39,325 bases of DNA from an uncultured Acidimicrobiales bacterium. GTDB taxonomy: Bacteria > Actinomycetota > Acidimicrobiia > Acidimicrobiales > SZUA-35. Position numbers and translations under genes: made by a program. Numbering within the stretch: position 1 is the first letter of the stretch; each line of letters opens with the position of its first letter. Positions 14,851 through 28,155 of the stretch are shown piece by piece. The stretch spans positions 1 through 39,325 of the forward strand of contig CAKZXA010000094.1 in assembly GCA_937922045.1 (NCBI GenBank), given 5' to 3'. The notes beneath the pieces are model-generated. The model saw nothing but the letters and a program-made list of their open reading frames with translations, was not told the origin of the DNA and did not search any database.

Positions 14851-17784
14851 TCAGCGTGCGGAGAGGAGCTGGAGCGCCCGTTCGGCCACTTCGTCGAGCG
14901 CAGCTTCATCACTATCAGTCGCTGATTCCAGATCGGCCTCCGGAGCGAAGTCGAAGAGATCGAGCAGCGTCTTCAACGCCTTGTCCCGGGCGTCCTGGTC
15001 TGCGGCTGAGTGGCGAAGCGTCAGCAATAAGAGCTCCTTCGCCTGGGAACTTGAGGAGTGGCTGGCGACTCCCACACGGCAGCTCACGACGGCGGCCCAC
15101 ATCAAGTACCGCCCCGCTCCAGTCTTGAGTGCCAGCCGAATCCCGGCCTTGAGATCGTCGATGGCGCCGGCGGTCTCCTTGCGAAGCAATCGAGCCTCGG
15201 CCCTACCGACATGATTCGCACACACCGTCGTCAGTTGGTCGACGTTGGTTGCTGCCTCGATTCCGTCCGTGAAGCATTGCTCAGCCGCCTCCGCGTCGTC
15301 CAGTTTGAGATGAGCCAAGCCTAATATCGAAGGGAAGTAGATCGCGAGGCTGTCAAGAGAGGCCTCCTTTGCGATGGCCCAACCTTCGTTGAGTAACACG
15401 ATGGCACGCTCCGGGTCGGACTCGACCTCGATATCTGCGAGGATGAGGTAGGACGTTGTCATCACCGACTGGTCGTTAGCCGCCCTGCCTGCCTGCAGGG
15501 CCAGACGTGCCGCGCTCGCAGCCTGATCTCTGTCCCCGCGATAGTGGTGTGCTTGTGCGAGGTCGTACTGAAGTGACGCTGTCAGTGTGGACGGATCGTG
15601 AGAGATGAGGGCTAGGCCCGCCGTAAAATTGGCGGTGGCCTCATCAATTTCGCCGGTGTTGAGCTGTAAAACACCAAGTGATCGCAGTGCCTGTGCTCGG
15701 GCGTGGGAATCATCTCCCGAGCTCAGAGCGAGGGCCTCCTCGAGTCGCGCACGCGCCTGGATCGTCTCGCCTGAGAGCACTTCGAACCAACCGAGTGCTT
15801 CAAGGATTTCTGCCAAAAGACCCTGGGGAGGATTGGGATCAGACTTCAAAGCATCGGCGACGGCCGCAAAGAGAGTTCTGCCCTCGCTGACCCGACCCGA
15901 CTTGGTGAAGAACTGACGCAGGGCTCCCAGCGTCACGCGATGCAGTTCCCACAATTGGTTTTGGGCATCCCATAGCCATGCGGACGTGAAATTGGAAACC
16001 TCGGCGTCAAACCCCTGTGGGTGGGCGTTGGTCGAGTTGGTTGGTGTCGCCGTTGTGAAGCCCTGGCACCAGTCGCTCAGAACCTGACGGTATTCGGCAT
16101 GGAGTTGAGGGCGTTGTTCCAGTTCGGACTGGGCGTAGCTTGCGATCAACGGGTGCAGCGTGATGCGACCCTCGACGTGCAGCCTGGCCAATGAGTGCTG
16201 CACTAATCGGCCAATCGATCTGATCGAAAGCTGCCGCAGCTTGAGCGCCTCCTTGGTGAGACAACCACCGGGGAAGGTTGCGAGCAACATCAGGGTGTTC
16301 TGATCGGCTTCGTCCAACATCGACCACGTTTGGTTGAGCACTGCCTCCACGGAGCGAAGATCGCTGTCCATTGGTGTGCCGAGGAGTTCGTTGTCCACCG
16401 ACAGTGCGTCGAGGATCTCCGTTGGCGAGAGGATCTGTACCCAACCTCCCGCGATCTCCAACGCCAGCGGATTTCCACCGACTCTGCGGCAGACATCGTG
16501 AATGGCGGCCCGGCTCGAGCCGCTCAGCCGATTGTCGCTAACCCCAGCGCGACGAGCCGACGACACAAAGAGTTGTTCTGCCGGCGAATCGGGTTCGTGG
16601 TCTGAGGTTCTGAGGCCGGTGAGCCGGACCAGCGACTCCGGAGCCACCTTCAGCGGGACGCGGCTCGTGATGAGAACCCGAAGAGCCGCATTGGTCTGAA
16701 CGAGTTCAGCGGCGACTGCTGCGGAACCCAAAACCTGCTCGAAATTGTCTAGTACAAGCAGGACCGGCTCATCGTCGGGGAGCTGGTTAGCGAGCGAAGC
16801 GACGCTGTCGAATCTTTGGCCCAACGAGGTTGCGATCGCCGGAGCGACAAGATCTTGATCGAGGACGTCTTGTAGGTTGACCCAATACCGGTGTGGAAAG
16901 TCTTCTTCAGCCGCCGAGCTGTTGAAGAACTCGGTGACCAAGCGAGTCTTTCCGCTGCCGCCGAGCCCAACAACCGTCGTCAGCCTTTGCGAGGCGACCG
17001 ATGAAGCGATGGCCTCGAGTTCTTCCTTGCAGCCGAAGAGCGGCGTTGCTCCGCTAGGGGCTGGAGCCTCAGAGTTGCTTGGCGCAGTGAGGGGCGCTTT
17101 GTGGTCCTGTGACTCTGCGATTGGATCCAGCGCCAGTGGCTCGACCGCCGGTAGCGAGATGCCGAACTCTTCGGCCATCGAGCGCACAGCATTCGCACCC
17201 GGCCTCGCAGCGGATGCCAGGATCTGGTGGTACACCTCGAAGTAGTCTGGCGATGGGAACCCATCGCGGATCGCTATCTCCCACGCCCGTTCGACAGCAG
17301 TCGCCGCGGCTCGATGCTCGCCAGCATCAAAGAGTTCCCGGCCTCGCTGAAGTAAAGCCAACTCGACCATCGCCGCCAGCGTCGTTCGCTCAGTGAGCAC
17401 CCATTCCTCGAACTCTGCGCTCTGCCGTCGGAGCTTGAGGTTGCCCAGAAACGGGGCACCATAAAGCTGAGCCACCGACTCGAAGTCGGAGCGATCGATT
17501 GCATCGCGCAGATCGGCGACGTCGGATGGCAGCTCCGTCCCGACGAGGGAGTTCCCTCGGATCCAAACGCCGCCCGGTACCTCGGCACGAATGCGGTTGA
17601 GGGTCGTCGACAGACTGTTCAGCCCATTCTTGCTGTTGTGCCAGAACAAGGCCGCGAGATGGTCTCGATCTCGCGGTCCTCCCACGGCCAGATATGCCAG
17701 CACGGCCACAGGTAGTGGTTGTAGTGCAACCTCTTCACCATCGCCCCGGACTACATGCGGCTGCCCAAACGTTGTAAGCCTCAC
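14851..17784 (-). CDS. AfsR/SARP-like regulator: BTAD, STAND NTPase and TPR domains
   Basis: The 977-residue protein begins with a winged-helix-like domain (residues 1-90, MRLTTFGQPHVVRGDGEEVAL) and a bacterial transcriptional activation domain of TPR type (95-240). A STAND/NB-ARC NTPase follows, with Walker A GLGGSGKT at 273-280, Walker B VLLVLDNFEQ at 341-350, ITSR near 372 and GNPLALEIAG at 437-446. Residues ~600-970 are TPR-like helical repeats. This is the AfsR/SARP architecture, in which ligand or partner binding to the TPR region gates ATP-driven activation of transcription. GTG 17784 is the start, with TACCAT 8 nt upstream as a possible -10. It stands alone; its targets are unknown, but neighbouring secreted-protein genes are candidates. 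Confidence 0.88.
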   Translation of the reverse strand: MRLTTFGQPHVVRGDGEEVALQPLPVAVLAYLAVGGPRDRDHLAALFWHNSKNGLNSLSTTLNRIRAEVPGGVWIRGNSLVGTELPSDVADLRDAIDRSDFESVAQLYGAPFLGNLKLRRQSAEFEEWVLTERTTLAAMVELALLQRGRELFDAGEHRAAATAVERAWEIAIRDGFPSPDYFEVYHQILASAARPGANAVRSMAEEFGISLPAVEPLALDPIAESQDHKAPLTAPSNSEAPAPSGATPLFGCKEELEAIASSVASQRLTTVVGLGGSGKTRLVTEFFNSSAAEEDFPHRYWVNLQDVLDQDLVAPAIATSLGQRFDSVASLANQLPDDEPVLLVLDNFEQVLGSAAVAAELVQTNAALRVLITSRVPLKVAPESLVRLTGLRTSDHEPDSPAEQLFVSSARRAGVSDNRLSGSSRAAIHDVCRRVGGNPLALEIAGGWVQILSPTEILDALSVDNELLGTPMDSDLRSVEAVLNQTWSMLDEADQNTLMLLATFPGGCLTKEALKLRQLSIRSIGRLVQHSLARLHVEGRITLHPLIASYAQSELEQRPQLHAEYRQVLSDWCQGFTTATPTNSTNAHPQGFDAEVSNFTSAWLWDAQNQLWELHRVTLGALRQFFTKSGRVSEGRTLFAAVADALKSDPNPPQGLLAEILEALGWFEVLSGETIQARARLEEALALSSGDDSHARAQALRSLGVLQLNTGEIDEATANFTAGLALISHDPSTLTASLQYDLAQAHHYRGDRDQAASAARLALQAGRAANDQSVMTTSYLILADIEVESDPERAIVLLNEGWAIAKEASLDSLAIYFPSILGLAHLKLDDAEAAEQCFTDGIEAATNVDQLTTVCANHVGRAEARLLRKETAGAIDDLKAGIRLALKTGAGRYLMWAAVVSCRVGVASHSSSSQAKELLLLTLRHSAADQDARDKALKTLLDLFDFAPEADLESATDSDEAALDEVAERALQLLSAR

Positions 17785-19799: not shown

Positions 19800-20426
19800 A
19801 TGCCTGTTCTCCGCTACATCACGCACCCGGAGGTCGCCATTGACCCCACTACGCCGCCCCACCAATGGGGCTTGAGCCGTCGCGGGGTCCAACGAGCGGT
19901 GGCAATGTTGGATCAGCCGTGGGTGGCAACAATTGAGCGGGTGATTTCGAGTCCGGAACCGAAAGCGATGCAGACCGCTGATCTGCTAGCCGAGAGGCTT
20001 GGCCGGTCTGTCGACGTTCGAGCCGATACGGGTGAGAACGATCGAACGGCAACCGGCTTCGTGCCACCGGAGCAGTTCGAAAAGCTCGCGGATGCCTTCT
20101 TTGCTGATCCGACGGTTTCAATCGAGGGTTGGGAGACGGCGGCCGATGCCCAACGCCGGATTGTTGGCGCCCTGCAGAATGTGTTCGAGTCATCTGAAGG
20201 CAGCGTTGCTGTCATCGGGCACGGAGCGGTAGGCACGTTGTTGCGGTGCCATCTGATGGGGGTGCCGATAGACCGCATCTATGACCAGCCAGGTCAGGGC
20301 CACTACTACACGGTCGAATGTGACGCACTCGACTTCGGTGTGCTTAGCTCGTCTCAAAGCCAGGGGGAGCGCTCCTTCCATGGCTGGACGCCGATCGATC
20401 GACCCGAACTCGACCATATGGCTTAG
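19800..20426 (+). CDS. Histidine phosphatase family protein, atypical N-terminal motif
   Basis: The 208-residue protein follows the phosphoglycerate-mutase-like layout: an N-terminal histidine motif in RYITHPEVAIDP, WGLSRRGVQRA, ISSPEPKAMQTADLLAERLG, a middle Glu, and the second His in VAVIGHGAVGTLLRCHLMG. The usual RHG is ITHPE, so the Arg next to the nucleophilic His is Thr. The loss may reflect a subfamily with other chemistry, since many HPE-type variants exist. It lies 18 nt after the acyl-CoA ligase gene and may share its transcript. The substrate is unknown. Confidence 0.82.
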   Translation: MPVLRYITHPEVAIDPTTPPHQWGLSRRGVQRAVAMLDQPWVATIERVISSPEPKAMQTADLLAERLGRSVDVRADTGENDRTATGFVPPEQFEKLADAFFADPTVSIEGWETAADAQRRIVGALQNVFESSEGSVAVIGHGAVGTLLRCHLMGVPIDRIYDQPGQGHYYTVECDALDFGVLSSSQSQGERSFHGWTPIDRPELDHMA

Positions 20427-20440
20427 GTATTGAACTAACC

Positions 20441-20480
20441 CCAATTGATATTGGATCGCGATCGCCACTCTTCGTAACGT
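20441..20480 (+). promoter_or_regulatory. Promoter with overlapping palindromes before the M19 operon
   Basis: TTGGAT at 20451-20456 and TAACGT at 20475-20480 are an 18-bp-spaced -35/-10 pair. Two palindromes overlap the -35: CCAAT-TGAT-ATTGG at 20441-20454 and the perfect 10-mer GATCGCGATC at 20454-20463. A repressor or activator site here would control the small ORF and the M19/unknown/DUF3726 genes. The start of transcription would be near 20487. Confidence 0.5.
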
Positions 20481-20513
20481 AGGGTGTCTCCATCTGGCTT
20501 GAGGAGCTTTGTC

Positions 20514-20624
20514 ATGGTGCACGAAACTACGTCGATGGACAGCGGCGGGCGGGTGTCGGTGAGCGTTCCTACATCGCCGCTGGTGTACCGATCGAGGGAG
20601 GCAGACGCCCATGTATCGAATTGA
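20514..20624 (+). CDS. Possible 36-residue leader or small peptide gene
   Basis: ATG 20514 has GAGGAG at 20501-20506, an excellent SD at 7-nt spacing, and lies about 27 nt after the predicted transcription start. The peptide is 36 residues with no Cys and no hydrophobic segment; it contains MDSGGRVSVSVPTSPLVY. Its stop overlaps the start of the M19 gene by 14 nt in another frame, which would couple translation. It may be a leader peptide, a small partner protein or a peptide substrate. The coding call rests on the SD, promoter and overlap, not on homology. Confidence 0.45.
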   Translation: MVHETTSMDSGGRVSVSVPTSPLVYRSREADAHVSN

Positions 20625-21600
20625 CTGTCTCCAGTTCGCAAACTGGTCCGAGTCGATCTTTCGCGAGATGCGCAAGGGAAGGGTCGACGCCGTTCATGTC
20701 ACGATCGCCTACCACGAGACGTTCCGCGAGACCGTGGCCCAGATCTCACGCTGGAAGCGATGGTTCGATCAGTTCGACGATTTGATTCTGCACGGTCTCA
20801 CCGCGGCCGACATCGATCGGGCCCGGGAAACCGATCGAACCGCAATCTTCTTCGGGTTCCAGAATCCATCCCCGATCGAGGCCGATATCGACCTGGTCGG
20901 CATCTTGCATACACTTGGCGCTCGGTTCATGCAGCTCAGCTACAACAACCAATCCTTGCTGGCGACCGGATGCTATGAGGCTGAAGATCCTGGCCTCACC
21001 CGCATGGGGCGCGAAGTCATCAAGGAGATGAACCGGGTTGGGCTCGTCATCGACATGAGTCATTCGGCCGACCGATCCACCATCGAAGCCGCCGAGTACT
21101 CCGACCGTCCGATCGCCATCACCCATGCCAACCCAAGCGCATGGCACCCTGCGCTCCGCAACAAGAGCGACGAGGTCATCAGGGCGGTCGTCGACAATGG
21201 CGGCATGATGGGATTCTCCTTGTATCCCCATCACCTCAAAGACAAGAGCGACTGCACGCTCGAGAGCTTCTGCCAGATGGTGGCCGACTCGGTCGAAACG
21301 TACGGGATTGATCATTTCGGGATCGGAAGCGATCTCTGCCAAGACCAGCCGGACAGTGTGGTCGAATGGATGAGGGTCGGTCGTTGGACCAAGGGCATCG
21401 ATTTGGGTGAAGGCTCAGCCGCGATGCCCGGGTTCCCACCCCAGCCCACATGGTTTGCAGGCAACGGAGACTTTGGCACAATTGAAGCTGGTCTTCGCAC
21501 CATCGGATTCGATGACAACGAGGTGGAATCGCTCATGGGTAACAACTGGTACCGGTTCTTCGCCGAAAGTTTCGAGCCGCTCTGTTCCAGCGGCTCGTGA
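20611..21600 (+). CDS. M19 (renal dipeptidase-like) family protein with altered metal site
   Basis: The 329-residue protein aligns over its length with membrane dipeptidases: LGARFMQLSYNNQSLLATG, GLTRMGREVIKEMNRVGLVIDMSH and PIAITHANPSAW, then FGIGSDLCQD and a C-terminal NNWYRFF. The two late ligand histidines (His151 and His172) are kept. The first pair (His-x-Asp in DGHND) is replaced by DCLQF at residues 5-9, and the bridging Glu of the EGG motif is Gln84 (GFQNP). The canonical binuclear zinc site is therefore unlikely to form as usual, and the reaction may differ from dipeptide cleavage. No signal peptide is seen, so it is cytoplasmic. It is part of the operon with the next two genes. A GGGAGG precedes the ATG by 9 nt. 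Confidence 0.85.
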   Translation: MYRIDCLQFANWSESIFREMRKGRVDAVHVTIAYHETFRETVAQISRWKRWFDQFDDLILHGLTAADIDRARETDRTAIFFGFQNPSPIEADIDLVGILHTLGARFMQLSYNNQSLLATGCYEAEDPGLTRMGREVIKEMNRVGLVIDMSHSADRSTIEAAEYSDRPIAITHANPSAWHPALRNKSDEVIRAVVDNGGMMGFSLYPHHLKDKSDCTLESFCQMVADSVETYGIDHFGIGSDLCQDQPDSVVEWMRVGRWTKGIDLGEGSAAMPGFPPQPTWFAGNGDFGTIEAGLRTIGFDDNEVESLMGNNWYRFFAESFEPLCSSGS

Positions 21601-21610
21601 GCGCCAACCG

Positions 21611-23329
21611 GTGAGCGAACCTCAGGGCCAGGACGCGGCGAGGTTAGACGAGATCAACCTCCGCCCGCCCGGGCTCGTCATGCGCCTCGATCGACTCGGT
21701 TCTTTTCATCAGAGTCGGTTGTCGTTCATGCGCATCTTGCTGCGCCGGATGAAACGAGAAGAGTGGACGTTCACGAGACCCCGGTTCGCTATCGATGCCG
21801 ATGGTGTTGGCACCGCTCTCTACACCGCCACCACCCCTGAACGTACCTACACGCTTGTGGCCTTCGCCCACGATCTGCCACCCGAGATGCGCTCGGACCG
21901 TGTGATCGCCACGGCGTGGGACGCAACCTTTACTCTCCACGATGGGGTGCCAAGCGAGGCCGACATCGAACGGCTGCGCGCCAATGTTCCGCTGCAGGAA
22001 GCGGGGCGAGTATCGGCCAGCGAACTCACGCTGTCTCGGGCCAACCGCTCGGTGCGCCTCTGGTCGGCCGTCGTTGCGGCTCTGGCTGCCGGTCGCCAAC
22101 CCGAGGTCGAACTCATCGAGAGCGTTGGCTATCTCATGAGGACGACAGCCGTCTATGGCAGCGGAAAGTTTGGAGCGGCCGACCGGCAAGCGATCGAAGA
22201 CCGCGACGAGCTCCAGGCCCCCTTCCAAGTCGAGATGCTCACGGTCTATCTGATTCGCGCCTTCGTGCTCGACCTGGTCGAACACATGGCTTCCACCATC
22301 TCGCCCGAGGCAACCCGGCTCGAACCGGCGCTGCGACGGCGACTCGGCATCGGCAACTCAACCGGCCTCGGCATGGCGCCGTTCCTGCTTACCCACCCGA
22401 AGCTGGTCAACAACTGGATCGCCGCCCGCGAACAGGCACTCGGCCGGGTACGCCGTGTCGAAAAGGCCAGCCATGAAGAAATTGAACAGTTCCGCTCCTT
22501 CGTCCGTCGCTCGCGCCGTCAGGTGTCAACCTGGCGTTCTGAACACCCGGCCCAGCAACAAAAACTGGTAGCGCTCAAGGACGACCTCGACCAGCTCGAC
22601 AGCTACCTCGCTTCCACCCAAACGGTGGCTCTGCTCGAGGGTGCTTATCCTTGGGATGCTCTCATCGATTGGGCCCACCAGACGCTGACACTCGAAGGTC
22701 AAGAGCTGCTCGTATCGTTAGTTTTGGAGCCGTACGGTCACCTCGTCGACGATCTCACGTCCACGATGCACGCCGATGAATCTTCGCCGACCCTCATCGA
22801 TGGGTCCCTGTCGGTCGCCGAGGTCCGCCGCCGGTTGACGTCGAACTACGGCTGGTGTCTCGACACCGACTGGTCGGCGCCCGAAGCTGATGCCCGAGTG
22901 TGGTACGTGTCGGAAGAGAAGCTCGAACCCCGCCTCGGCGAGCGCTACGAGGAACCGATTAGCGACTTTGAGCAGCCGTTACAGCCCGCCCGCGACGCTG
23001 CTCGTTTCCACGCCGAACTTGTGGGCTGGGACGATGACGTAACGCTCGGCGAGGTCCTCCGGTGCCGCCCCGAGCATCGGCATACGGCCCGCCGTTTGAT
23101 GGTGGTAAACGAGGCTCCCTACGCCGAGATTTGTGACAACACAATCCACGCTGAGATGCTGCCGATCGATCTGTTGCGAGCCAAGCTGAGCTTCTTCGGT
23201 GCCACCCATTTCGACCCGCGTTCAGACCGATGGGTGCGGATCAACATGTTTCGTGGTGCGCCCCTACCCGAGGAACTGCACAGCGCCGATCCGGATGGCT
23301 GGGTCTATCCCGCCGACACGCCACCATGA
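21611..23329 (+). CDS. Large conserved-looking protein of unknown family
   Basis: Starting at GTG 21611, 10 nt after the M19 stop, the product has 572 residues; the upstream open frame overlaps the M19 gene and is not protein-like. No domain is recognised. Visible features are an N-terminal RLGSFHQSRLSFMRILLRRM segment, a helical middle (residues ~250-400) with a charged coil around VEKASHEEIEQFRSFVRRSRRQ, a Trp/Tyr/Glu-rich part around VWYVSEEKLEPRLGERYEEP, and a C-terminal EICDNTIHAEMLPIDLLRAKLSFFGATHF region. There is no signal peptide or membrane segment. It is locked between the M19 homologue and the DUF3726 gene (ATGA overlap), so the three probably act together. The function cannot be stated. 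Confidence 0.85.
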   Translation: MSEPQGQDAARLDEINLRPPGLVMRLDRLGSFHQSRLSFMRILLRRMKREEWTFTRPRFAIDADGVGTALYTATTPERTYTLVAFAHDLPPEMRSDRVIATAWDATFTLHDGVPSEADIERLRANVPLQEAGRVSASELTLSRANRSVRLWSAVVAALAAGRQPEVELIESVGYLMRTTAVYGSGKFGAADRQAIEDRDELQAPFQVEMLTVYLIRAFVLDLVEHMASTISPEATRLEPALRRRLGIGNSTGLGMAPFLLTHPKLVNNWIAAREQALGRVRRVEKASHEEIEQFRSFVRRSRRQVSTWRSEHPAQQQKLVALKDDLDQLDSYLASTQTVALLEGAYPWDALIDWAHQTLTLEGQELLVSLVLEPYGHLVDDLTSTMHADESSPTLIDGSLSVAEVRRRLTSNYGWCLDTDWSAPEADARVWYVSEEKLEPRLGERYEEPISDFEQPLQPARDAARFHAELVGWDDDVTLGEVLRCRPEHRHTARRLMVVNEAPYAEICDNTIHAEMLPIDLLRAKLSFFGATHFDPRSDRWVRINMFRGAPLPEELHSADPDGWVYPADTPP

Positions 23330-23952
23330 TCGATCTCTCGCTCGGCGAGTTCCGAGCCCTTGCGGCGAAGGCACTGAGAGGCGCAGGTTACAGCTGGGGG
23401 CTGGCCGACGACGGGGCCTTTGCCGCCAAACGACTGGCCGAATACGGCCTGCCCAGTGGTGCGATGCTGGCGCGGTTGCTGCATCTGGCTGACCGGCACG
23501 AGGCATCCGAGCTGACCCCCGATGCGTCATGGCGAGCATCGGGCACTGCAGTCCTTTGTCCCGTGCGGTTGGGTTGTGCTCTGGCTGATGCCGGTGGCTG
23601 GGATCACCTCGACCTGGGAGCAACGATGGAGCCATACTTCCTCGGCCCCTTGCTCATCGCCTCGTTGGGGGGCGACGAGGCGAAGGCCTACCGCGTCGAG
23701 TGGGACGGAGGCGGCTACGCGATCGGCGCTGTGGGGTTGGCGAGTTCCGGCTCGTTGCCGATGAGCGCTGTCCCCATCACCATCGAGCGCTGTGAGATGC
23801 CTACGAGCACTCCGGCGATAGCGGCGTCGCGAGTTGTGCTCGCCCCCTCTGTGCTGAACGAGCTGGAGAGGTTCGCCCATCGGACGTATGCACCATCGAC
23901 CGAAGCGAGCCGGGCTACAGGAGCCGGAGCTGGTCTTGTCGACAGCGATTGA
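23326..23952 (+). CDS. DUF3726-family protein
   Basis: The 208-residue protein begins with LSLGEFRALAAKALRGAGYSWGLADDGAFAAKRLAEYGLPSGAMLARLL, the characteristic start of DUF3726 (an Ala-rich helix with GAGYSWGLA). The rest alternates strands and Gly/Ala-rich turns, with a few cysteines (VLCPVRLGCALAD). The ATG overlaps the stop of the upstream gene (ATGA), showing translational coupling. It is cytoplasmic. No biochemical role is known for DUF3726; the operon with a modified M19 protein suggests small-molecule metabolism. An upstream start at 23230 would extend it into the previous gene without conservation. Confidence 0.85.
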   Translation: MIDLSLGEFRALAAKALRGAGYSWGLADDGAFAAKRLAEYGLPSGAMLARLLHLADRHEASELTPDASWRASGTAVLCPVRLGCALADAGGWDHLDLGATMEPYFLGPLLIASLGGDEAKAYRVEWDGGGYAIGAVGLASSGSLPMSAVPITIERCEMPTSTPAIAASRVVLAPSVLNELERFAHRTYAPSTEASRATGAGAGLVDSD

Positions 23953-23960
23953 CGCCACAG

Positions 23961-23986
23961 GAGCGTGATCGCCGCGATCAGCGCTC
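23961..23986. terminator. Hairpin between convergent genes, overlapping a 3' coding end
   Basis: GAGCG and TGATCG (23961-23971) pair with CGATCA (23975-23980) and CGCTC (23982-23986), with a CCG loop and one bulged G. It separates the DUF3726 gene from the convergent M6 protease gene and includes that gene's last codons. It looks like a bidirectional terminator without a T-run. Confidence 0.5.
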
Positions 23987-26323
23987 GCCCCTGCCCCTGC
24001 CCTGACCGCCGCTCTTGCCGTTGCCATCAGCCGGTCCGACCTGGACCTGCATGAAATTGCCTCGGGCGCTTAGCGACTTGACCCTGATTTGGGTGCCGGT
24101 CGTTGGGTTGATCACACCAGCGGTCGGTGTCGCCGGGTTGTAGTACTGCTTCGTGTCGTCGAACACGGGTACAGCGGGCAAGCTTGGATGAGACGACGGC
24201 TGACTGAGCCAATGCAGCGTCAAGGCATCGGTCGCCTCCAGCCCAAACGTTGAATCGTAGGACTGGATACGAGGTCGCCACGGCTCGCCATCGGCGCGGT
24301 ACATCGTGTCGGGATGAGCATCGATCGGGAGAATCAGACCCTCGCCCGGATGAGCGCTGGTCGAGTTGTCGGTGTGGGAGGAATCCCAGTAGCTGATCAA
24401 CAACCCGTCCTGATAGCTGAATCGCTCCACCCGGTTGCCGAGCAGCGGGTTGTCTTGGAAGCCGAAGTTGTAGGGACCGGTACGCAGGGCGTCGTCGTAA
24501 CCCCGGTAGACACGATTCTCCGCTATGTAGGCGTTGAAGTAGGCGGCTTCGTTGGTGCCCGTCGTGGCGCTAAAGCCTTTCAAGGTCCAGCCGTCGTCGC
24601 CCTCGGCGCCGAAGGTTTCGCCACCGATCGTGATGTCGTCGACCATGAACCCAGGTTCGATTGCGGCCACATCGGTCCAATAGCGGAAACCGACCAAGGT
24701 CGGGCCGGTGTAGCCGGAGAGATCAGCGACGAGATCAACCCAACCATCGGAGGCGCCGGTGATGCCGTTGCCGAAGTTCTGGCCGTTGGGGTTGGTGCCC
24801 GTCGACAGATTTGTGGGCACCGGGTTCCAGGTGGTGCCTCCATCGGTAGAGGCCACGGCATAGGCGTAGTCCCAGTCGGCTTCAATCTGGTAGTTGGCCT
24901 TCGCCGTCATGGTGGCGCCAGCGGCCAGGTCAAACGCTCGATACATCATGTTGTCGAGATCGTTGCCCTGGCCAGAGTAGTAGAACTGCTCACCGGTGAA
25001 GGGTGTACCGGTGACCTCGGTGACCATCTTGTCGGGCAGCGTCACGATCAAGGCTTGAGCTTGCTTGGTGTTGGCAGAAGCGGGACCGAGCTTATGCTCC
25101 GAACGCTCGCCCGCCTCGGCGGTTTCATAGTTGAGCCAGCCGAGTTGCAGCTTCTCCCACGCGCCCATATGGGTGGGCTTGGTGCCGATATCGATGGTGC
25201 CGTCGTTGCCATAGGAACCCGAAGACATGAGCGTCCACCAGGCCGTGGAGTTCTCACAAGCAGAACCGCAGGTGTTGGCTGAGGTGTCGTAGAGATCGGG
25301 GAGGCCGAGATCGTGAGCGTATTCGTGGGCGAACACGCCAACCGCTCCGTTTTCGGGCTCGACCGTGTAGTCGCCGATCCAGTACTTCGAACCGCCGACT
25401 TGCGTGCCGCCGAAGGGCACGACGGATCCGTCATCCAACGTCGGGCCGCCGCCACCCAACGGTGTCAGCTGCACATACCAGCGGTGCGACCAGATGGCAT
25501 CGGCGCCGTAGGCACCACCACCGGTTTCTTGCCCGGCGCCGGCGTGGACAGCCTGGAAGTGGTCGATGTAGCCGTCGGCCTCGTCAAAGTTGCCGTCGCC
25601 GTCGTGATCGTAGCGGTCCCAGACGTCGTACTGGGAGAGGTAGGCGTCGATCTCAGCCGCCGACCTACCGGCGTCGAGCTCGTTTTGATACCAGGTATCG
25701 ACCGAGTCACGCACGAACCACCAGGTGGTGCTGCACACGACGCTTCCGCACCAGTCACGGCCGTAGTGGGCGGCCCGGAACGGAACCTCGGACCAATCGG
25801 TCACATCACCGTCGACGGCGTACCGCCCGCTGGAGTTCTCGATATAGAAGTTACGCATCGAGTTGGCGCCGGCTGCATTGGAGAAGAGCAGTTCTTCGTA
25901 GTGGGCTTCGTTGAAGTCGGGCTCCCAGATGGTCGAGTTGTCGACCGCACGGTCGGGCTCGGGAATCTGGTTGTGGAGCGGACCTTCGGCGCCGCCTTGA
26001 AGGATGCCAAACGGAGACTCGGCATCGCCGAACTCACCGAGCACGGTCCAAATCAGGTCTTCGTCCTCGCGGGCTAGTTCGACAAACTGGCCTTTGGCCA
26101 CCTCGACTACAGGGCCCTCAGCCTTACCCTTGACGACCATTTCCATGGCCTGGCGGCGTAGTGAGCGTTGTTTCTGGCCGAGTTCGTGGGGTACATCGTC
26201 GGTGTTGTAGCCGACGGCATCCGGAAGCGTGCTGTCGCCGCTTGCGGCGGAAACGGGAGGTGTCGGGAGAAGGGCGGCGGTCATCGCCAGCAGTGCAGCG
26301 ATCGTCAGAGCGAGCTTTCTCAA
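23978..26323 (-). CDS. Secreted M6-family metalloprotease (immune inhibitor A-like)
   Basis: TTG 26323 is chosen because AGGAGG (26331-26336 on this strand) lies 7 nt upstream; the longer frame from 26362 has no such site. The 781-residue protein begins with a Sec signal peptide (LRKLALTIAALLAMTAALL...VSA). A pro-region of about 110 residues precedes the catalytic domain, which carries HEYAH at 333-337 in VFAHEYAHDLGLPDLYD, the M6 zinc signature. A DxDGDGNF calcium-type loop lies about 85 residues before it. The C-terminal half has a beta-sandwich segment and a Ser/Gly-rich basic tail. It probably degrades extracellular proteins. A second secreted protease follows on the same strand. Confidence 0.93.
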   Translation of the reverse strand: MRKLALTIAALLAMTAALLPTPPVSAASGDSTLPDAVGYNTDDVPHELGQKQRSLRRQAMEMVVKGKAEGPVVEVAKGQFVELAREDEDLIWTVLGEFGDAESPFGILQGGAEGPLHNQIPEPDRAVDNSTIWEPDFNEAHYEELLFSNAAGANSMRNFYIENSSGRYAVDGDVTDWSEVPFRAAHYGRDWCGSVVCSTTWWFVRDSVDTWYQNELDAGRSAAEIDAYLSQYDVWDRYDHDGDGNFDEADGYIDHFQAVHAGAGQETGGGAYGADAIWSHRWYVQLTPLGGGGPTLDDGSVVPFGGTQVGGSKYWIGDYTVEPENGAVGVFAHEYAHDLGLPDLYDTSANTCGSACENSTAWWTLMSSGSYGNDGTIDIGTKPTHMGAWEKLQLGWLNYETAEAGERSEHKLGPASANTKQAQALIVTLPDKMVTEVTGTPFTGEQFYYSGQGNDLDNMMYRAFDLAAGATMTAKANYQIEADWDYAYAVASTDGGTTWNPVPTNLSTGTNPNGQNFGNGITGASDGWVDLVADLSGYTGPTLVGFRYWTDVAAIEPGFMVDDITIGGETFGAEGDDGWTLKGFSATTGTNEAAYFNAYIAENRVYRGYDDALRTGPYNFGFQDNPLLGNRVERFSYQDGLLISYWDSSHTDNSTSAHPGEGLILPIDAHPDTMYRADGEPWRPRIQSYDSTFGLEATDALTLHWLSQPSSHPSLPAVPVFDDTKQYYNPATPTAGVINPTTGTQIRVKSLSARGNFMQVQVGPADGNGKSGGQGRGRGER

Positions 26324-26634
26324 GGAAGTTCCTCCTAGGTGTCCGGATCGACGTCCGAACATACGGGTAATGCACCGCAGGCCCCTGTGAGGGGAAACTC
26401 AACGCAGGAAACGTGTCGGGCCAGCCGACCGCAAAGGGCCTTGCACGCCTCAATAATCGTAGCAGTTGGTGTTGCTTGGATCATCGTGACCACGGCCCTA
26501 GAGGCGGTATTGGGTTGCATCACCCAAGGCGGGCCGCAGGCGCGACGAAGGCGGCCTCAGATGTGAATCCGAGACCGCCTTCAGCCTAATTTCTCACGGT
26601 GTGGAGAGCTCGCCGTTTCGCGGCGAACCGTGGT
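26324..26634. other. Intergenic region between two secreted protease genes
   Basis: This 311-bp stretch holds the SD of the M6 gene (26331-26336) and two inverted repeats: TTGGGT-TGCATC-ACCCAA at 26510-26527 and the longer hairpin at 26548-26581. The promoter of the M6 gene must lie here, but no clear -35/-10 pair was identified. No gene is supported. Confidence 0.6.
26548..26581 (-). terminator. Hairpin downstream of the subtilase gene
   Basis: AAGGCGG (26548-26554) pairs with CCGCCTT (26575-26581), with a further CTC/GAG pair inside and a loop of about 12 nt. It begins about 54 nt after the S8 protease stop on the minus strand. No T-run follows. A rho-independent-like terminator is likely. 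Confidence 0.5.
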
Positions 26635-28155
26635 TTACCAGGTGACCGTCACCGTGTCCGAGCAGGTGGTGGTGCCGCTCACGCAGACGTAGTAGGTGGC
26701 GGTTCCGCCGCCCTTACGGCCAAGATTGTCGGTGTAGGGCGAGGCGGAAGTGGTAGCGATGAGGCTTCCGTCGCGATAGATGTCAACATCGCCAGACGCT
26801 CCCGACCAGCTGATGTCGGCATGCTGCACACCCTTTACCTTGTAACCCGACGCGGCAGCGGTCAGATCACCAGGGGGTGGCGGCGGGGCGTTGGTATCGA
26901 CCAAGGTCGGTACAAAGGCGCTGCTTGAAATATCGAGTAGCGGTTCGAGGATGCCGTCGCCGGACTCATCGGTCCAGTTGTAGTTGCCAGTCCCGGTGAC
27001 CTGGTTGTAGAGACCGTACACGTCACCCGAGTTCGACGGGTTGTTGTTGCTGGCCAGCAACGCCAAGGCACCGGCGACATGAGGTGATGCCATCGACGTC
27101 CCAGAGATTGTGCCGTAGCCGCCTTCTTCCAACGGGTAGGTGGATGTGATGCATACACCGGGAGCAGCGATGTCGACGTCTGCGCCGAAGTTGGAGAAGT
27201 TGGCCAACGTGTCGTCTTCATCGGCGCGGCAGGTGGCTGCTCCGTTGCCGCCCGGGGCGCCATCAAAGTCGGCGAGGGCTGAAACGGTGAGCGCATTGTC
27301 GAACGAGGCCGGACTGTAGCCCGAAGCATCCTGGGAATCGTTGCCAGCGGCGACGGCGAACGCCACGCCAGCGTTGACTGCACCCTGGATGGCGTCGTAT
27401 TCGGCCTGGCTGTATCCGGCGCCACCAAGGCTCATGTTGGCCACCTCGATTGTGCTCGCGTTGGCCGCGACCCAGTCGATGCCGGCTACCACCATCGATT
27501 CGCTGCCGCTGCCGTTGCTGTCGAGAACCTTGACGGCCCAGATGCGGGCGCCCGGTGCAACCCCGACGACACCGAGGTCGTTGTCGAGAGCGCCGATCGT
27601 TCCAGCAACGTGGGTGCCATGATAATGATCGTCATCTCCGCCAGCCGAGCACGTAGCGTTGCCGAAACGGCGTTTGGACTTACAGGAGACACCGCCGACC
27701 ACGTTCAGATCGGGGTGGTCGTAGTCGACACCGGTGTCGATAACAGCCACATCAACGTCGACCCGCTTGTCGTCGGTCTGGTCGATGTCGAGCGCAGCTT
27801 CATCGGCGAAGATTCGTGGGAGACCCGATGGCGTGTCCTGGGCGGCGAGTTGGATCGTTCGATCCATCTCGACATAGGCGACCTTTGGGTTGCGGGCCAA
27901 GGCGGCTGCGGCCTGGGCCGACATTGTCATCGAGTAACCCTTGAGGGCATGTTCATAGACGAAGCCGACGGTGCCACCATTTGCGTTGGCGGCTTGCCGT
28001 GCTTCGGCTGCAGCGTTGGCTTGGGCGTCGTTCAAGACGACGATATAGGACCCCACTTGTCCGTTGTCGGCCGCAGCGGAGACCGCTGTTGGGGCTACGA
28101 GCAAGCTTGCGAGCAGGGTTAAGACCGCGACAAACGCGGCGTGTTGTCGAACCAT
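26635..28155 (-). CDS. Secreted S8 subtilisin-like serine protease with I9 prodomain
   Basis: The 506-residue protein has a signal peptide ([23 protein letters not shown]), then an inhibitor-I9 propeptide ([12 protein letters not shown]...VAYVEMDRT, to ~100). The catalytic triad is Asp140 in VIDTGVD, His179 in HGTHVAGT and Ser354 in GTSMASPH; Asn272 of AAGND is the oxyanion-hole residue. A C-terminal domain of about 80 residues after a PPPPP linker resembles a small beta-sandwich ([20 protein letters not shown]) and may bind substrate or the surface. The ATG is preceded by AAAGGAG. The enzyme should act on extracellular proteins. Together with the M6 protease it indicates scavenging of peptides. 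Confidence 0.96.

Follow-up and report, generated by a model that had tools for sequence, protein, structure and literature searches.

A conserved three-gene unit shared by Acidimicrobiales and Alphaproteobacteria, probably involved in the degradation of a cyclic N-methylated betaine such as homarine

In this work we analysed a stretch of 39,325 nucleotides (the window) from an uncultured Acidimicrobiales bacterium, which is contig C94 of a draft genome of 4.9 Mb with 97% completeness. Positions 20611-23952 form a three-gene unit on one strand, encoding an M19-like protein, a protein of 572 amino acids (P572) and a DUF3726 protein. The three genes are inherited together as a unit, and they probably represent the catalytic core of a system for uptake and breakdown of a cyclic N-methylated betaine, with homarine (N-methylpicolinate) as the most likely substrate. 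A cyclic N-methyl betaine is proposed from the genes found around the conserved core, which encode transporters for betaines, an enzyme resembling imine reductases, an aldehyde dehydrogenase (ALDH) and, at some loci, a putative N-methyl-amino-acid oxidase. The unit is probably a member of an already published pathway, found here in an actinobacterium with scattered genes. The features are as follows:

20611-21600, plus strand: M19-like protein of 329 amino acids (Pfam PF01244, E 5e-71)
21611-23329, plus strand: P572, the 572-amino-acid protein, with GTG start and no family match; signature gene of the module
23326-23952, plus strand: DUF3726 protein of 208 amino acids (PF12525, E 4e-13)
20514-20624, plus strand: small reading frame of the original prediction, 36 amino acids, not conserved, probably no gene

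The coupling of the three larger genes, claimed by the original prediction from the window alone, is borne out. The M19-like protein passes PF01244 with 239.8 bits (cut-off 26) and the DUF3726 protein passes PF12525 with 49.4 bits (cut-off 22.1). The M19-like and P572 genes are separated by 10 nucleotides, and the start of the DUF3726 gene overlaps the P572 stop by 4 nucleotides (ATGA). Since 62 of the 78 relatives in which it could be measured show the identical overlap (two of the 80 loci were not measurable), this coupling is above chance.

The original prediction had also placed a small open reading frame (ORF) and a dedicated promoter with two palindromes in front of these genes. The frame does exist and overlaps the M19-like gene by 14 nucleotides, as described, but a search of the region preceding M19 at 13 further loci from the order detected no frame of similar sequence (the 13 include two same-genome pairs; L123 matched a distant M19 and is therefore uninformative). 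Unlike frames of 27-58 codons end at the same +14 place in L051, L030 and L047, because the first M19 codons themselves encode this stop. A role of the small frame as leader or peptide was rejected, as the frame is not conserved. A scan of positions 20380-20640 gave no sigma-70-like promoter, other promoter types being outside its reach, and no inverted repeat with exact arms of at least six and loops of at most 12 nucleotides was found in 20427-20610, a scan that does not cover shorter palindromes. The palindrome CGATCG in the upstream region is common throughout the window, with 58 copies compared to 31.4 expected from dinucleotide shuffles. As the small frame, the promoter and the palindromes are without support, we describe the element as a unit of three genes.

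Conservation was analysed by a scan for P572 in one genome per species (84,980 species), which delivered at least 586 confirmed relatives. The locus counts given here refer to the best 80 of these, most of them Alphaproteobacteria; they are biased toward the P572 type of the window, and several loci end at contig edges. According to tblastn, 76 of the 80 loci carry all three genes, the opposite of the case named in the original prediction as speaking against a common system, namely that the genes rarely occur together. M19 is missing in L120 and L122, DUF3726 in L056 and both in L116; despite the lack of a tblastn match, DUF3726 was found at L056 by ORF clustering, and a relative with E 3e-9 is present at L116. 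The ORF clustering, which comprised up to 10 kb on each side and cluster labels assigned by eye, undercounts M19 in comparison to tblastn (69 versus 77 of 80 loci). In 76 of 77 loci M19 and P572 share one strand, and in 62 of the 77 they are at most 200 bases apart.

Some individual loci deserve mention. One TGA lies within the M19 matches of L015 and L026 (G113, G171), possibly past the true stop. In L116, L120 and L122, the P572-DUF3726 pair adjoins an AMP-binding-like enzyme and cytochrome bc1-like genes, as labelled by eye. The L122 contig is filed as Flavobacteriales and is probably mis-binned; its gene order is that of Rhodobacteraceae MED-G08 (L116), with similar proteins. Apparent P572 fusions (frames of 1111 and 1152 amino acids in G319 and G339) were rejected, the extra part being upstream read-through across a BCCT gene.

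Within the order of the window, P572 is present in 23 of 198 genomes. The M19 protein was found at E≤1e-30 in 25 genomes, comprising all 23 with P572 and weaker partial matches in G049 and G148. Tightening the cut-off to E≤1e-60 leaves 22, all within the P572 genomes, G156 being lost. Both genes are present in G107 on different contigs. PF12525 occurs in eight of the 198 genomes, exactly those with a P572 of the window type (at least 49% identity). A fourth gene follows the same pattern: with the Ldh_2 protein of G016, which belongs to the second cluster type described below, as query, 23 genomes matched at E≤1e-60, namely 22 of the 23 P572 genomes and G102 (9e-67, 43% identity), and the sole P572 genome without match, G138, is 74% complete. 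At E≤1e-75 all of the 22 matching genomes carry P572. These stricter cut-offs (1e-60 for M19, 1e-75 for Ldh_2) were picked after inspection of the lists. Fisher p values for M19 and Ldh_2 against P572 are at most 6e-27 at every threshold; relatedness is ignored in them, and they overstate independence because genomes within a family are related. In the window's own family, Ldh_2 is found in four of four genomes with P572 and in none of three without (p 0.03). Linkage does not account for the pattern, since many Ldh_2 genes are located on contigs other than that of P572. A phylum-wide sample contained P572 in 5 of 396 genomes, and the three of these that lie outside the order also have an adjoining M19. 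Both the gene order in different phyla and the phylogenetic profiles thus lend good support to the suggestion that the genes work in a common pathway on a small molecule.

The neighbourhoods of the 80 loci point to the kind of small molecule. A typical cluster has the order LysR / ALDH-M19-[BCCT]-P572-DUF3726-Ldh, and the clustering revealed ALDH in 54 loci, LysR in 42, Ldh_2 in 28, a ProV-like ATPase in 16, RidA in six, sarcosine-oxidase-like genes in five and an MttB-like methyltransferase in three. BCCT transporters are present in 21 loci (two clusters of 15 and 7, with L076 in both). In the annotations of Ruegeria sp. TM1040 and Phaeobacter inhibens, LysR is divergent from ALDH, membrane dipeptidase, BCCT, hypothetical protein (P572), DUF3726 and Ldh; beside the cluster, alpha and gamma subunits of sarcosine oxidase are annotated in both, the TM1040 alpha subunit being supported by profile as well. 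Pararhizobium and Aminobacter sp. MDW-2 have the same annotated operon with BCCT replaced by a glycine betaine ATP-binding cassette (ABC) transporter. In G165, a sarcosine-oxidase-like gene is one gene away from Ldh_2.

Two further types of cluster can be distinguished. In the second, found in Actinomycetota, P572 comes first, followed by M19 and a small protein. Clustering of 13 wide loci of this type detected Ldh_2 in seven, an OpuAC-type binding protein in three and ALDH in three, and the small protein (cluster C2) lies near P572 in eight of them; two C2 members gave no meaningful match in Pfam. At the actinobacterial loci outside the order, ALDH is located beside one and BCCT beside two. 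The third type (type C), in Sinorhizobium meliloti and Aminobacter aminovorans, comprises P572, a small protein, M19 and a different ABC transporter. In a tree of 52 P572 proteins, which is midpoint-rooted and has long branches, the window falls among 34 rows with Alphaproteobacteria (support 100/100), and the second type forms a separate set of 16 rows (97/94). The core in the window is therefore of the type shared with Alphaproteobacteria and unlike the second type in other genomes of its order. Transfer of the P572 core into this lineage is the likely, though not the sole, interpretation, and its placement in the tree suggests that a transferred core may now work with a native transporter and reductase.

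In the window's own genome (G000), homologues of the main partners are present as judged by sequence similarity, unlinked to the trio. At the end of contig C17 we found ProV and ProW, with 69% and 59% identity to their P572-linked counterparts in G016. Contig C63 opens inside a ProX gene (80% identical to G016), followed by Ldh_2 (62%). The ProX-like gene is seemingly split by an assembly break, with its probable start at the end of C17 and the remainder at the start of C63. ALDH is encoded on contig C9, with 76% identity to the P572-linked ALDH of G016, and contig C34 carries sarcosine-oxidase-like alpha, beta and gamma genes, identified by profile, together with a short delta-like ORF seen by eye. 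The label covers enzymes of both the sarcosine oxidase and the N-methylglutamate dehydrogenase (Mgd) type, and the sequence does not tell which N-methyl amino acid is used. The best solved relative of the own-genome Ldh_2 is 1wtj (DpkA), a delta1-piperideine-2-carboxylate reductase, with 188.5 bits compared to 131.0 for the next structure, a lead of 57 bits; for the TM1040 Ldh_2 the same structure leads by 48 bits. This likeness is one of sequence similarity. DpkA of Pseudomonas also makes N-methyl amino acids.

From these genes the following pathway can be proposed. The betaine would be imported by a transporter of the BCCT or ProVWX type, and its ring would then be opened or cleaved by P572, the DUF3726 protein and the M19-like protein together. 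A resulting semialdehyde may be oxidised by the aldehyde dehydrogenase. Ldh_2 would reduce an N-methyl imine to the N-methyl amino acid, which is N-methylglutamate if homarine is the substrate, and the oxidase would demethylate this product, in the homarine case to glutamate. The roles of the trio and the order of the steps are putative. A hand balance for homarine gives homarine + 4 H2O -> N-methylglutamate + formic acid + 2[H]. One carbon is lost in this balance, and the ring-opening part has to explain this loss as well. An excerpt of PMC13390433 names Mgd as a participant in the catabolism of homarine, and cites the bacterial homarine pathway as published (Ferrer-Gonzalez et al. 2026, Nat Microbiol). 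The trio is set apart from such a cluster in that it stands alone in the window, with its partners on other contigs. The genes of the trio are probably those of the published pathway. The homarine cluster is presumably named homABCDER, and its six letters would fit LysR, ALDH, M19, P572, DUF3726 and Ldh. Literature searches found no mention of homABCDER, and none of homarine together with N-methylglutamate dehydrogenase; the papers listed in further searches did not include one with this set of genes.

Several points weigh against homarine degradation by the trio. The identity with the published genes leans on the presumed name homABCDER and on the six-gene fit. Three loci (L116, L120 and L122) carry P572 and DUF3726 without an adjoining M19; a search for M19 in the L116 genome gave no match, and the L120 genome has M19 elsewhere than at the P572 locus. 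The Acidimicrobiales loci nearest to that of the window mostly show no adjoining ALDH, Ldh or transporter, and the rhizobial type C clusters use a different kind of transporter. The ProX orthologue is associated with P572 more loosely: of the 198 genomes, 12 have it at E≤1e-75, five with and seven without P572 (p 0.006), and six have it at E≤1e-150, two of which, G056 and G159, carry no P572. The ALDH of the window's own genome and that of TM1040 share only about 35% identity; the former is nearest to betaine-aldehyde dehydrogenase models and the latter to 2,5-dioxovalerate dehydrogenase models, each below cut-off, and because of these differences the two possibly catalyse different steps. The oxidase, unlinked in the own genome, could serve sarcosine.

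A pathway of the same kind could act on another substrate, such as trigonelline, proline or hydroxyproline betaine, N-methylproline or pipecolate betaine, the core making a cyclic or N-methyl imine for Ldh_2. The transporters are of a general betaine type, the nearest solved relative of Ldh_2 acts on a cyclic imine, and the divergence of the clusters into three types, with different transporters, hints that there is more than a single substrate. On the other side, the statement on Mgd in the excerpt of PMC13390433 favours homarine, to which the presumed six-gene fit may be added. We regard another substrate as rather unlikely, though it has to be kept in mind. To our knowledge, the known routes for trigonelline and proline betaine use other enzymes.

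Further information on the chemistry is provided by the M19-like protein, which belongs to the subfamily of its best solved relative, 2i5g. We take this structure to be PA5396 of Pseudomonas aeruginosa, for which a literature search found no mention, and it may be the predicted dipeptidase beside dgcAB in that species (see below). M19 dipeptidases bind metal by an H-x-D motif, a bridging Glu, two metal-site His and a later Asp. In an alignment of 104 rows from the fetched loci, together with an alignment to solved relatives, the two His (H151, H172) and the Asp (D241) are kept in 103 of 103 letters. In contrast to the family, H-x-D is replaced in the subfamily by L-x-[YIF]: 102 letters at the His place comprise 98 Leu, 2 Val, 1 Cys and 1 Asn, and the Asp place holds 71 Tyr, 16 Ile, 13 Phe and 2 Cys. 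The motif was placed by eye, because the Pfam match begins after it. The bridging Glu, aligned to the Glu of 3id7, is Gln in 102 of 102 letters. Q84, N85, C121 and E123 are invariant across the subfamily; Cys121 is absent from the aligned rows of 3id7 and GliJ, and the counterpart of Glu123 is Glu in 3id7 and Val in GliJ. Judged by these residues, the site is under constraint and is apparently unlike that of the usual dinuclear dipeptidase.

These observations bear on two other explanations. Processing of a peptide or cyclic dipeptide by an M19 dipeptidase with accessory proteins would agree with the membership in PF01244. However, all 102 of the 104 rows with a letter at these places lack the H-x-D residues His and Asp as well as the bridging Glu, and no peptide transporter or synthetase is prominent when the 40 largest gene clusters from the 80 loci are inspected, which makes this explanation highly improbable; for a peptide as modified substrate, considered in the original prediction, no support was found. 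The altered active site would also suit repair or detoxification of reactive imines or N-methyl compounds from betaine metabolism rather than a main catabolic route, and RidA, an imine-handling family, occurs in the six loci labelled by eye and is annotated in one type C cluster. The annotated operons, which contain LysR as well as betaine transporters, point instead to substrate-driven catabolism, and a repair function is improbable. A role of the M19-like protein in the catabolism of betaines and related N-methyl compounds finds a parallel in Vibrio natriegens and Pseudomonas aeruginosa, where genes for a predicted dipeptidase and for a hypothetical protein lie ahead of dgcAB, the dimethylglycine dehydrogenase genes (PMC12093977). 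By analogy, this arrangement fits a function of the M19-like protein in N-methyl-amine catabolism, although the excerpt of that paper names neither P572 nor DUF3726.

P572 has no match among Pfam, NCBIfam and the PDB sequences; one Pfam match at E 0.44, below cut-off, is regarded as chance. A structure prediction, as proposed in the original prediction, gave a confident model (predicted local distance difference test, pLDDT, 84; predicted template modelling score, pTM, 0.86) and no significant match to a solved fold: with the whole model, not separate domains, as query, the best Foldseek hit had E 0.31, and VIA-align revealed weak matches only (best Z 4.9, root mean square deviation 3.3, 86 residues). 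No listed family stood out in either comparison as a fold for P572. For DUF3726 a literature search found no mention, and a model built from the single sequence (pLDDT 37) was not used. DUF3726 may be derived from the N-terminal domain of Ldh_2, for which there is a hint only: the N-terminus of the Ldh_2 at L170 (8626-9609, G139:C10) passes PF12525 by 0.7 bits, hhalign gave a probability of 37%, four Ldh_2 and two DUF3726 proteins showed no cross match, and a small rhizobial protein matched Ldh_2 at E 0.09 only.

The original prediction had regarded the genes as the best candidate in the window for an undescribed system. This holds insofar as P572 matched nothing in the libraries searched; the cluster as a whole recurs with betaine transporters in Alphaproteobacteria and is most likely the published homarine pathway. 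A more far-reaching interpretation, which we consider speculative and on balance doubtful, is that P572, the altered M19 and DUF3726 constitute a new kind of enzyme, opening an aromatic N-methylpyridinium ring although neither a flavin nor an oxygenase component is recognisable. The M19 fold would then have been turned from a dinuclear hydrolase to other chemistry, P572 would be a new fold, and the three diverged forms of the trio, having different transporters, would serve several betaines.

Homarine and other betaines are osmolytes of plankton, and their degraders bear on the return of carbon and nitrogen to the water. If betaine degradation is the correct assignment, the trio together with Ldh_2 would be a clean genomic marker of this trait outside Alphaproteobacteria, even where the genes are scattered, and P572 and the M19-like protein could be named as two proteins with a chemistry new to us.

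In the surroundings of the trio within the window, positions 23978-28155 on the minus strand, facing the trio, encode two secreted-looking proteases as judged by eye, one M6-like (23978-26362) and one subtilisin-like (26635-28155). On the other side, a protein of 977 amino acids encoded at 14851-17784, also on the minus strand, has by eye the look of an AfsR/SARP-type regulator.

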